Source: Bacillus sp. FJAT-29790
GTDB taxonomy: Bacteria; Bacillota; Bacilli; Bacillales; Cytobacillaceae
Length of the DNA: 64,000 nt
Assembly (NCBI RefSeq): GCF_019039215.1
Contig: NZ_JAHNZZ010000001.1
Location: 1,380,678 to 1,444,677 of the forward strand
Direction of reading: 5' to 3'
The notes below the pieces were generated by a model. That model saw only the letters and a list, made by a program, of their open reading frames with translations, had not been told where the DNA came from and searched no databases. Position 1 is the first letter of the stretch; each line of letters starts with the position of its first letter. Below are positions 6,157 through 18,162 of this stretch, one piece after another. Both the position numbers and the translations under genes were made by a program.

Positions 6157-6285
6157 CAAAAAAAGCCCGCGAGATGCTAAAGAACAGCGATCTCCCAGGC
6201 TTTTATCCTTCCGTGGCACAGCATCAGCTGTGAGTTTTCTCTCGGACCAGTCCAGCACAAGGCTGCGGAACCCTAGAAAACATTT
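6157..6285 (-). promoter_or_regulatory. Guanidine-I (ykkC) riboswitch with terminator
   Basis: On the minus strand the leader shows the ykkC core elements in order: CTAGGGTTCCGCA at 6276-6264, ACTGGTCCGAGAGAAAAC around 6252-6235, a GCTGATGCTGTGCCACGG arm, then GGATAAAAGCCTGGGAGAT. The last part forms the 5' arm of a terminator (AGCCTGGGAGAT pairing with ATCTCGCGGGCT, 6201-6164, then seven T residues). Guanidinium binding is known to prevent terminator formation and turn on exporters. Confidence 0.95.
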
Positions 6286-6304
6286 CGTATATTAATTCTT
6301 CTTA

Positions 6305-12066: not shown

Positions 12067-13230
12067 CTAGCCTGCATTTTTAGCATCATTAAATTTAGAC
12101 TGCATTTTAGATTTAAAAAACAATTTCATCATCGGCGGAGTCACAATTGTTGTAACGAGAATCACAATAACAATTACCGCAAACAAATCTTGAGTTAATA
12201 GCTTCGATTCTAACCCAATTGCTGCAATAATTAATGCAACTTCCCCACGGGAAACCATTGCTGAACCTATTGCCATTGAGCTATTCCAGGAAAACCCTGC
12301 TGCTTTTGCTCCAAGGGATGCACCGATTAATTTCGTTAAAATAGCTAAAATACTTAGACCAACAATAAGACCAAGATTGTCAATCACGCCATTAAACTGA
12401 GCAGAAATCCCGATGGATGCAAAGAATACGGGAACAAAAATCGAATAGCTAATCGTTTCTACTTTTTCAAAAATCTCATTTTTGAAGCCAGTTAAACTAA
12501 TCGCTATTCCTGCGATATATGCACCAATAATTGCTGCAACCCCCGTATATTCCGCTAAATATGCAAAAACAAAACAGATGATCAAAGCAGATGAAATGAT
12601 CGTTTCAGTAACCTTTAACGGTGCAAACTTTTTCATGAACCAAGGAACAACCTTCCACCCAACAAGGGTAGCACCTGCGAAAAATAGTATTTTCTTCATG
12701 ACAACTACACCTAAGTTCACATCCCCGCCAGCCAGGCTCATTAAAAATGCCAAAGCAAGAATGACTACGACGTCATCAATAACTGCCGCTCCTAGAATGG
12801 TTGCCCCTTCACGCGACTTTAATTGATTCATCTCTTTGAGCGCTTGAACAGAAATACTAACACTAGTTGCTGAAAGTAATAATCCCAAAAACAGCGATTG
12901 GACAGAAGTAAGATCGAGAACCATACCAGCAAAATAGCCTAAAACAAGCGGAACAATAATGCCGCCTAATCCTACAAATGCAGCAGGTTTTCCAGTCCGT
13001 TTAAACTCATCGATATCAGTCTCTAGTCCTGCGATAAACATCAGCAATATCACACCAATTTGACTAAACTGTGCTAAAGTTTCTGTCTCAGTCACTAAAC
13101 CTAAAACAGATGGACCCAAAATAATCCCAATCAATAACTTACCCAAAACAGAAGGCTGACCTAACCTTACACTAATGTCTCCGAAAATTTTGGAGGCAAA
13201 TAAAATGATTGCTAATTGAAGGATTAACAT
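12067..13230 (-). CDS. CPA2-family Na+(K+)/H+ antiporter, NapA/GerN type
   Basis: 387 residues with about 12 membrane segments and no cytoplasmic RCK domain. The CPA2 signature AAVIDDVVVILALAF (paired acidic residues of the ion site, here Asp-Asp) lies mid-protein. It has the size and layout of GerN and NapA, which exchange Na+ and/or K+ for H+; GerN functions in spore germination. A KefC-type role is less likely without a TrkA-N domain. The start follows AAAGGTGG. A strong terminator-like hairpin sits in its leader (see findings). Confidence 0.82.
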   Translation of the reverse strand: MLILQLAIILFASKIFGDISVRLGQPSVLGKLLIGIILGPSVLGLVTETETLAQFSQIGVILLMFIAGLETDIDEFKRTGKPAAFVGLGGIIVPLVLGYFAGMVLDLTSVQSLFLGLLLSATSVSISVQALKEMNQLKSREGATILGAAVIDDVVVILALAFLMSLAGGDVNLGVVVMKKILFFAGATLVGWKVVPWFMKKFAPLKVTETIISSALIICFVFAYLAEYTGVAAIIGAYIAGIAISLTGFKNEIFEKVETISYSIFVPVFFASIGISAQFNGVIDNLGLIVGLSILAILTKLIGASLGAKAAGFSWNSSMAIGSAMVSRGEVALIIAAIGLESKLLTQDLFAVIVIVILVTTIVTPPMMKLFFKSKMQSKFNDAKNAG

Positions 13231-13269
13231 GTAACTTCCACCTTTCCATTTAAAAAATTTACAAAAAAA

Positions 13270-13317
13270 CAAAAAAAAAGCCTGTCACCAAGGGCATAAT
13301 TATCCCTTGGTGACAGA
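13270..13317 (-). terminator. Hairpin with T tract upstream of the antiporter gene
   Basis: CTGTCACCAAGGG/CCCTTGGTGACAG 13-bp stem, with a long T-rich tract on the minus strand just before the antiporter ribosome binding site. It may end the upstream selenoprotein transcript or act as an attenuator for the antiporter. Confidence 0.85.
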
Positions 13318-13421
13318 CTCCTCCAAGTGTTCTTTGTATTTTATTATTTTTAGAATAACATACTTTCAGGTAATTGGCATCATTTTATCGAAAGGATTAA
13401 TATGTAATACAACTTGAATAA

Positions 13422-13658
13422 TTAAGCTTGCATTTTTTCAATAATATCCTGTGATTTTGGAAATAACCCTGTGTCATCCTTCGAGTAAATTTTCACTCCG
13501 TTCACCGTGACTTCGAATACCCCGCCAGAGCTAGGGATTAACTCCATTTTTTGAATGTTGGTACGAAAATGTGTAAATAGGTCTTCCGCGAACCTCGCGG
13601 CTTTTGGTGCGTAGTTTCACTGCATGCAAAATTCTACAATAACATGGAAATTCCCCAT
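13422..13658 (-). CDS. SelW/Rdx-family selenoprotein with in-frame UGA (Sec)
   Basis: Reads as a 78-residue protein only if the TGA at 13619-13617 is decoded as selenocysteine at position 14. The protein then starts MGNFHVIVEFCMQ-Sec-NYAPKA, the CxxU redox motif of the SelT/SelW/SelH (Rdx) thioredoxin-like family, and ends with SSGGVFEVTVNGVKIYSKD, the family's second conserved block. AAGGAGG precedes the ATG at ideal spacing. A perfect short hairpin follows the UGA by 16 bases. It is divergent from selD, whose enzyme makes the selenium donor. ORF finders miss it. Confidence 0.9.
13586..13600 (-). promoter_or_regulatory. bSECIS-like hairpin in the Rdx selenoprotein mRNA
   Basis: CCGCGA-GGT-TCGCGG: a 6-bp perfect stem with a three-base loop beginning GG, starting 17 bases after the UGA. 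Distance, stem size and G at the loop start fit bacterial SECIS elements bound by SelB. Confidence 0.75.
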
Positions 13659-13692
13659 CTTTATTCCTCCTTAAAGATTAATAATCATTGCC

Positions 13693-13721
13693 ATTGTAAG
13701 ACAAGTTTTATTTTTCCGCAA
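13693..13721 (-). promoter_or_regulatory. Sigma-A-type promoter of the Rdx selenoprotein gene
   Basis: TTGCGG at 13721-13716, a 17-base spacer and TACAAT at 13698-13693, about 35 bases before the start codon on the minus strand. Confidence 0.6.
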
Positions 13722-13787
13722 ACGATACAATTCAATGATGTGATTTTAAGGCTTAAAATATGTATACTGAAGATGGAGGTGGTACTG

Positions 13788-14861
13788 TTGAGCGAGCATG
13801 AAAAAATTCGCCTGACTTCATTGTCAACGAAGGCTGGCTGAGGCTGCAAAATCGGTCCTGAGGACTTGGCGCAAGTTTTGCGTCTTTTACCAAAGCAAGA
13901 ACCAGTGCCTGAGCTGCTTGTTGGCCATGAAACATCTGATGACGCTGGCGTGTATCAATTAACAGATTCAATCGCTTTAATACAAACGATCGACTATTTC
14001 ACCCCGATTGTCGATGATCCATATATGTTTGGCCAAATTGCTGCTGCCAATGCACTCAGTGATGTGTATGCGATGGGCGGTCAGCCAAAAACAGTGCTGA
14101 ATATTGTGGGCTACCCTGTTAAAAAACTTGGTGCTGAAATGCTTGCGGAAATACTTAGAGGTGCTGGAGATAAAGTCACAGAAGCAGGCGCTATTACAGT
14201 CGGCGGGCATTCTATTGATGACCAGGAACCGAAATTCGGGCTCTCTGTTACCGGAATTGTTCATCCGGATCGCGTTTGGAAAAATGTCGGCGCAAAGCCT
14301 GGAGATATTTTAGTGCTAACAAAGCCAATTGGTGTCGGAATTTTGACGACCGGAATTAAACGAAGTGCAGTCACATCTGAGCAGGAAAAAACGGTCACTG
14401 AAATCATGGCTACGCTAAATAAAACAGCTGCCGAAATTTTAACTTCTTTTTCGCCACATGCAGTGACCGATGTAACCGGATTCGGGCTACTCGGGCACGG
14501 AAGTGAGATGGCACGTGGAAGCGATGTGAGCTTAGAGATTGATTTTGAAAAAGTTCCGATTCTAAATGGTACATACGAACTGGCTCAGCAAGGTGTCATC
14601 CCAGGTGGTTCAAAATCTAACCATAAGTGGCTAGAGAATGATGTGTTGTATGATCAGATTCCGCTAGAAGAACAGTATATTTTATGTGATGCGATTACGT
14701 CCGGGGGATTGCTTGCAGCCATTTCAGCAAATGAAGCAAACCAATATATCAAAAAGCTTCATGAAGCGGGCATTCATCAAGCTGGAGTAATTGGAAGAGT
14801 AGTAGAAAAACGGGATAAGCTCATTTATGTGCAACGTTCGAAAAATGCTTGGAGTTACTAA
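13788..14861 (+). CDS. selD: Selenide, water dikinase SelD (selenoprotein, Sec18)
   Basis: Makes selenophosphate from selenide and ATP for Sec-tRNA synthesis. An open frame starts at a TTG (13788) preceded by GGAGGTGG and is interrupted once by TGA at 13839-13841. Read as selenocysteine, this gives KAG-Sec-GCKIGPEDL, with Sec in the known catalytic Cys/Sec position and the essential Lys three residues later. The rest has the SelD landmarks (GHETSDDAGVYQL, NALSDVYAMGG, VTDVTGFGLLGHG, GGSKSN). Total 357 residues. A caller would begin it falsely at 13866 and lose the active site. Divergent from the Rdx selenoprotein gene. Confidence 0.95.
13846..13881 (+). promoter_or_regulatory. bSECIS-like hairpin in selD mRNA
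   Basis: An outer stem GCAAAA/TTTTGC (13846-13851 with 13876-13881) encloses an inner stem GTCC-TGA-GGAC (13855-13865), placed just after the Sec codon. It has a small apical loop with G at its second position, in the range expected for bacterial SECIS elements. Confidence 0.6.
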
Positions 14862-15039
14862 TAAGAGCGGTGGAATTCTTCCCCGTTCTTATTTTTGATC
14901 ATTGTGTATACATGATGTTTCTAATTATTAGCAGCTATATAATTAAACAGTTGCCTTCAAACTATCATGGAAGAACGAGATATACTTTTCATTCTCTGTG
15001 GTGTTACTGCGATGCATGGTTGGCTTAAGGGGTGATTAC

Positions 15040-17795: not shown

Positions 17796-17848
17796 AAAAA
17801 AGGACAGAAAAGGGTATTGTTGCGTTCGCTCCCCTTCTCTGTCCTTTT
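17796..17848 (-). terminator. Terminator of the glycine riboswitch leader
   Basis: AAAAGGACAGAGAAGGG/CCCTTTTCTGTCCTTTT long stem with T run, directly after the second aptamer and 165 bases before glyA. It is the likely expression platform. Confidence 0.9.
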
Positions 17849-18012
17849 ACCTGAGAGATTAACTCCTTTTCAGAGTTTTCCCCTTTGGTGGCGTTTAATA
17901 AACGCGCTCTCCAGAGTAACGTCCAGTTGTAGTACTTCTACCTGAGAGATTAGTTCCAAGGGTATTTTTGGAACTTGCTCCTTCGGTGGCATTTGCAATT
18001 ACACTCTCCCAC
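17848..18012 (-). promoter_or_regulatory. Tandem glycine riboswitch (two aptamers)
   Basis: On the minus strand two copies of the gcvT motif follow each other. Aptamer 1 (18012-17941) has GGGAGAG, GCCACCGAAGGAGCAA and CTCTCAGGTA. Aptamer 2 (about 17918-17848) has GGAGAGCGC, GCCACCAAAGGGG and CTCTCAGGTA. The short linker and terminator are typical. In Bacillus this RNA normally activates the glycine cleavage operon; here the next gene is glyA. Confidence 0.95.
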
Positions 18013-18162
18013 AACTATCATCCGTACTTAATTCAATTTTTGTAATTTTAAGATTAAATGATTTATTTAAATATGTCAATCTTTTTTGGAAACACTTTTA
18101 TCTATTTAGAAAGTAAGTTGATTAACCTACTTTTCTGAATTTTTATTCATTGCATCTTAATT

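Follow-up and report, generated by a model that had tools for sequence, protein, structure and literature searches.

The DNA analysed here, a window of 64,000 nucleotides (C1:1380678-1444677; genome of 4.55 Mb in nine contigs), almost certainly carries two genuine selenoprotein genes, rdx and selD, that diverge from a common intergenic region and whose in-frame UGA codons would be read as selenocysteine (Sec) by means of SelB and a hairpin. The interpretation first proposed from the sequence alone is, as a whole, supported. Both genes belong to known families, the Sec-containing Rdx and SelD proteins, as can be taken from the consulted parts of earlier publications (PMC1088965, PMC1794560, PMC9312934). 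The informative parts of the present analysis are the breadth of their distribution, a conserved gene cluster and a cysteine allele. The features of the locus are collected in Table 1.

Table 1. Features of the rdx-selD locus (positions within the window).
Feature	Position	Strand	Basis
Terminator-like hairpin and T run behind rdx	13274..13324	-	fold z -6.75
rdx (SelW-like/Rdx selenoprotein gene, 78 aa, CxxU)	13422..13658	-	profile matches; frame with one TGA
Predicted bSECIS of rdx, 5-bp stem, G in small loop	13586..13600	-	UGA+19 to +33; comparison
rdx in-frame TGA, codon 14, read as Sec (predicted)	13617..13619	-	conserved in relatives
Divergent intergenic region	13659..13787	.	conserved columns, 73 aligned relatives
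Conserved TATACT, possible selD -10	13763-13768		conserved columns, 73 aligned relatives
Ribosome-binding site GGAGG	13775-13779		conserved columns, 73 aligned relatives
selD (selenophosphate synthetase, Sec form, 357 aa, TTG start)	13788..14861	+	TIGR00476 match
selD in-frame TGA, codon 18, read as Sec (predicted)	13839..13841	+	conserved in relatives
Predicted bSECIS of selD, 6-bp stem, GTT loop	13869..13883	+	UGA+30 to +44; comparison
Terminator-like hairpin behind selD	14860..14893	+	fold z -5.55

The TGA of rdx is the sole in-frame stop and completes the motif C-M-Q-U. The product scores 75.7 bits against the Pfam family Rdx (PF10262, cut-off 22.6) and 61.8 bits against CXXU_selWTH (TIGR02174, cut-off 34.2), and 80.3 bits against NF041051, which is under the cut-off of 88. 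Seven distinct PDB sequences match it with E-values from 4.8e-12 to 3.3e-5, two of which are named SelT/SelW/SelH or selenoprotein-W-related. With an Rdx domain and a C-x-x-U motif arising from an in-frame TGA, the gene falls among the SelW-like Rdx selenoproteins, and a full-length Sec-containing product is predicted. Proteins of the Rdx family are in general C-x-x-U redox proteins, and the product of the window gene would be a small redox protein with such an active site. In selD, the only in-frame stop is likewise a TGA, here within the motif U-G-C-K. The protein reaches 413.1 bits against the selD equivalog TIGR00476 (cut-off 125) and, carrying U at the U/C-G-C-K position, is assigned to the Sec form of SelD; its selenophosphate synthetase activity is predicted. 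Frames and profile matches thus confirm the initial claim of two selenoprotein genes with one in-frame TGA each at the Sec/Cys position of the family.

The machinery for Sec decoding is encoded elsewhere in the genome. SelA was found with 477 bits, SelB as a frame of 629 aa with a SelB winged-helix match of 30.5 bits (cut-off 22.3), and tRNA-Sec with two matches of 60.4 and 50.9 bits (gathering score 47), both of which ARAGORN also calls tRNA-Sec (UCA). The genome therefore unites selA, selB, selC and selD, as in Sec-decoding organisms. The sequence-only reading had expected selA, selB and tRNA-Sec outside the window and had offered a genome devoid of selB or tRNA-Sec as its own refutation; since both are present, it stands on this point. 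MnmH exceeds the cut-off of its model in 32 of the 36 genus genomes, including the window genome. In the proposed mechanism, SelB bound to the hairpin just 3' of the UGA would deliver Sec-tRNA-Sec, and the UGA would then be read as selenocysteine in rdx and selD. SelD, which would need Sec for its own synthesis, would make selenophosphate for both SelA (Sec-tRNA) and MnmH (2-selenouridine in tRNA).

Two further observations concern regions outside the window. A molybdopterin oxidoreductase frame (C1:730304-731572, L016) contains one in-frame TGA in the context NNIDGCNRT-U-HAPSVAGL, which we take to be a formate dehydrogenase active site; the frame is probably a Sec-containing formate dehydrogenase. 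The two tRNA-Sec genes lie on one strand and 22 kb apart (C1:605488-627590; L002, L003, L011, L012). They differ mainly in the variable arm, whose pairing the changes preserve. Behind the first of them is a tyrosine-recombinase-like gene, and five of the ten proteins tested from the interval between them match defence-system models. Two tRNA-Sec genes occur in 5 of the 36 genus genomes, and of 29 other loci of the genus, 6 have a related integrase gene beside tRNA-Sec. In the window genome, selC looks like the attachment site of an island.

The distribution of the system was followed from the genus to the phylum. Rdx is present in 32 of the 36 genus genomes, with one TGA in 31 and without in the remaining one (G004). 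SelD was found in 33, every best match having a TGA, and tRNA-Sec in the same 33 genomes. SelA matches occur in 34, of which that of G035 is weak (3.8e-5); the other 33 are the genomes with SelD and tRNA-Sec, and their matches are full-length. Rdx, SelD and tRNA-Sec are jointly absent from G012, G013 and G035. Rdx is absent as well from G022, where SelA and tRNA-Sec are found together with a SelD that appears to be split over two frames; in its locus (L231), selA, an open frame at the position of the Hsp20 gene of L015 and selD succeed one another, with no rdx between them. Of the 193 family genomes at least 160 have Rdx, as do at least 165 of 397 genomes drawn from the order; among the matches listed, each has one TGA except that of G004. 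In the phylum it occurs in 27 of 398 genomes drawn, 25 of the matches having one TGA and two having none. Sec use is thus widespread in this Bacillaceae group, and the earlier opinion that it is uncommon in Bacillus-like bacteria has to be abandoned for this group, given the family count.

The pair of genes is likewise no oddity of one strain. The divergent arrangement of selD and rdx, already noticed from the sequence, is kept in 64 of 80 named relatives (the best 80 of 201), the aligned ends being 123-191 bp apart, as well as in C. spongiae. All 81 loci measured (the 80 named relatives and L015) have selA 3' of rdx and in the same orientation; divergent selD is present in 65 of these and selB is within reach in nine. 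Three further families of the order contribute four loci with the same gene arrangement (L224-L227). Since selA follows rdx in all loci measured, rdx and selD are to be seen as members of a selD<>rdx-selA cluster, which in some relatives includes selB. In the window genome the cluster is disrupted and its selA end has been lost: selA is located about 343 kb from rdx, and its place is taken by a frame (12067-13272) whose likeness to membrane proteins is putative. The 'compact selenium module' of the sequence-only reading is part of this larger cluster. Within the genus, selD adjoins rdx divergently in 10 of the 32 genomes with Rdx and is found about 3.5 kb from it in G010 and G011. In the other 20, selD is far off or on another contig, and its product is about 62% identical to that of the window. 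By identity to the window SelD, the SelD proteins of the genus form two groups, one at about 80% and the other at about 62%, and the genes of the latter group do not adjoin rdx; replacement or transfer of selD within the genus is possible. In 24 loci outside the order (L234-L257), neither selA nor selB nor selD was detected up to about 1.5 kb from Rdx (E<=1e-4).

The region between rdx and selD contains conserved columns (Table 1), and a scan with consensus promoters found no sigma-70-type site in it. An inverted CCGCA/TGCGG pair, present in part of the 73 aligned regions and weak in the window, was dropped as a candidate element. Neither of the terminator-like hairpins was listed by a consensus terminator scan. 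In relatives with a short gap between rdx and selA, a hairpin is located close behind rdx in 24 of 24 folds, and 17 of the 24 have a run of at least five T within about 120 bases. With these hairpins and T runs, a single rdx-selA operon is not favoured. The hairpins behind both genes of the window and behind rdx in relatives point to rdx probably having its own transcript; rdx and selD would be transcribed singly, each probably as a transcription unit of its own. As to annotation, it had been anticipated that rdx would be lost and selD truncated. In the one record checked, that of C. spongiae in the PLSDB gene table (which describes itself as incomplete), rdx lacks a gene entry, but selD is annotated intact across its TGA. 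A conserved selenoprotein gene is thus unlisted in an annotated relative. Elsewhere in the window, three riboswitches exceed the Rfam gathering scores, all on the minus strand: PreQ1 (2238-2280), guanidine-I (6190-6287) and tandem glycine (17829-18021).

Being linked to selA and selD, rdx may code for a protein that takes part in selenium handling itself. An extension of the preferred reading, which does not contradict it, is that Rdx has a dedicated role in Sec synthesis, e.g. reducing selenium or handing it on for SelD or SelA, rather than a general redox protein. The constant position of selA 3' of rdx, the frequency of divergent selD, the occasional selB and the recurrence of the order in three other families would all agree with such a role. 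Nevertheless, G022 keeps selA, tRNA-Sec and a frame-broken selD without Rdx, G004 uses cysteine, and the 24 loci outside the order are unlinked, all of which speak against a strict need for Rdx in selenium handling. In addition, selD stands right beside rdx in less than a third of the genus genomes with Rdx, and rdx seems to have its own terminator. The dedicated role is accordingly regarded as rather unlikely. If it were true, gene order would reveal the biochemical role of a SelW-like protein.

The reading of both UGAs as Sec depends in part on the hairpins downstream of them. A bSECIS element is described as a stem-loop located shortly 3' of the UGA, whose small apical loop contains a G (PMC1088965, in the part consulted). 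Both hairpins have this form, and no distinct sequence lacks the loop G (75 of 75 for Rdx, 67 of 67 for SelD). The comparison with covariance models that had been suggested for them yielded no curated match: in a search of 13560-13900 against Rfam, no family was found at gathering scores or at E<=5. Folded alone in two stretches each, the hairpins are not outstanding (z -1.20 and -1.29 for Rdx, -0.75 and +0.28 for SelD), and single-sequence folding, without significance in the four stretches, was rejected as proof of a hairpin.

The comparison of relatives was more telling. A total of 150 Rdx and 114 SelD stretches were reduced to 75 and 67 distinct sequences, which alone were counted (longer stretches gave 77 and 80, respectively). 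All 74 distinct TGA-bearing Rdx sequences retain the five pairs of the stem, against a mean of 12.8 and a maximum of 24 in 2000 trials of a synonymous-codon null, and the SelD stem is complete in 66 of 67, against a mean of 0.8 and a maximum of 5; this null applies the codon usage of the window to all species, and the sequences are related. Pair 2 of the Rdx stem is C-G in 58 of the TGA-bearing sequences, U-A in 14 and U-G in 2, a change that is silent because each of the two bases is the third of an alanine codon. Similarly, the SelD stem occurs as CAA/TTG in 59 of the distinct sequences, as CAG/CTG in 7 and as CAC/CTG in one, the first two being silent alternatives (third base of Gln, first base of Leu). 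A pair count on the Rdx hairpin was based on 38 chosen sequences, of which 37 are distinct: that of the window, the cysteine allele and 36 from among the 80 named loci. Paired cells, doubly changed cells and the covariation score exceeded those of all 500 shuffles. The number of pairs with a double change (1, mean 1.0) and that of further pair types (2, mean 3.0) stayed within the range of the shuffles because only one of the five pairs covaries. On a SelD tree limited to the 73 loci holding both rdx and selD, the state of the covarying Rdx pair changes at least 12 times. The tree provides three well-supported independent pairs only, 2.8 of 3 going the same way (p ~0.25), and the independence of the covariation was dropped as support since such pairs are too few.

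The sole cysteine-containing Rdx in the genus set, that of G004 (L028), has TGT in place of the TGA; its hairpin retains three of the five pairs, and the SelD of the same genome still has its TGA. This decay is what would be expected of a hairpin serving Sec insertion only, in what is a single case. Going beyond the synonymous-codon null and showing silent covariation, both hairpins appear convincing once relatives are compared. The proposal of bSECIS-like hairpins was therefore upheld by comparison, with full stems throughout the TGA-bearing Rdx set and in all SelD sequences but one, but not by lone folding, in which they are unremarkable.

It could still be argued that the UGAs are read by another route, such as a near-cognate tRNA or general suppression, or that they persist as regulated stops, the hairpins having no part in it. 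The insignificant lone folds and the missing Rfam match would fit this. On the other hand, the full Sec machinery is present in the genome, the three genus genomes without tRNA-Sec are also without Rdx and SelD, the stems are conserved beyond the codon null and the cysteine allele has lost pairs, which together make such a route very improbable. That the genes are pseudogenes or sequencing errors, with TGAs arising as nonsense mutations or as base errors in Cys codons, would agree with exactly one stop interrupting each frame, but was rejected as next to impossible because the TGA is conserved, in 31 of 32 genus Rdx matches and, across independent assemblies of the named relatives, in 80 of 80 Rdx genes and in 64 of 64 selD genes where selD is in reach. 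Decoding as Sec through SelB and the hairpins thus remains the preferred reading for both genes.

In comparison with known systems, the window SelD is like other Sec-containing SelD proteins in its match to the selD equivalog and in the TGA at the U/C-G-C-K position, with no structural difference. SelD is listed among the common bacterial selenoproteins in the consulted portions of PMC1794560 and PMC9312934. The Sec trait of Firmicutes and Bacillales was also known already by 2006, since a table in the part of PMC1794560 consulted counts three families and three selenoproteins for Bacillales; the broad spread of Rdx was found here. SelW-like genes were counted 48 times in the Sargasso Sea (PMC1088965, in part), and SELENOW-like proteins are given as pfam10262 with CxxU in a table of PMC9312934 (in part). 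The Rdx protein of the window resembles these bacterial selenoproteins in its PF10262 and CXXU_selWTH matches, in C-x-x-U and in the TGA at the Sec position. In a limited search of the literature, no description of the selD<>rdx-selA cluster was found, and the portions consulted of PMC5322559, PMC2398784 and PMC5029168 contain none. The order of this cluster offers a testable lead to the role of bacterial SelW-like proteins, and the G004 allele, with its cysteine and its decayed hairpin, a natural control for bSECIS function. The difference from known SelW-like genes therefore lies in the surroundings of the gene: in the relatives measured, rdx sits inside the selD<>rdx-selA cluster.
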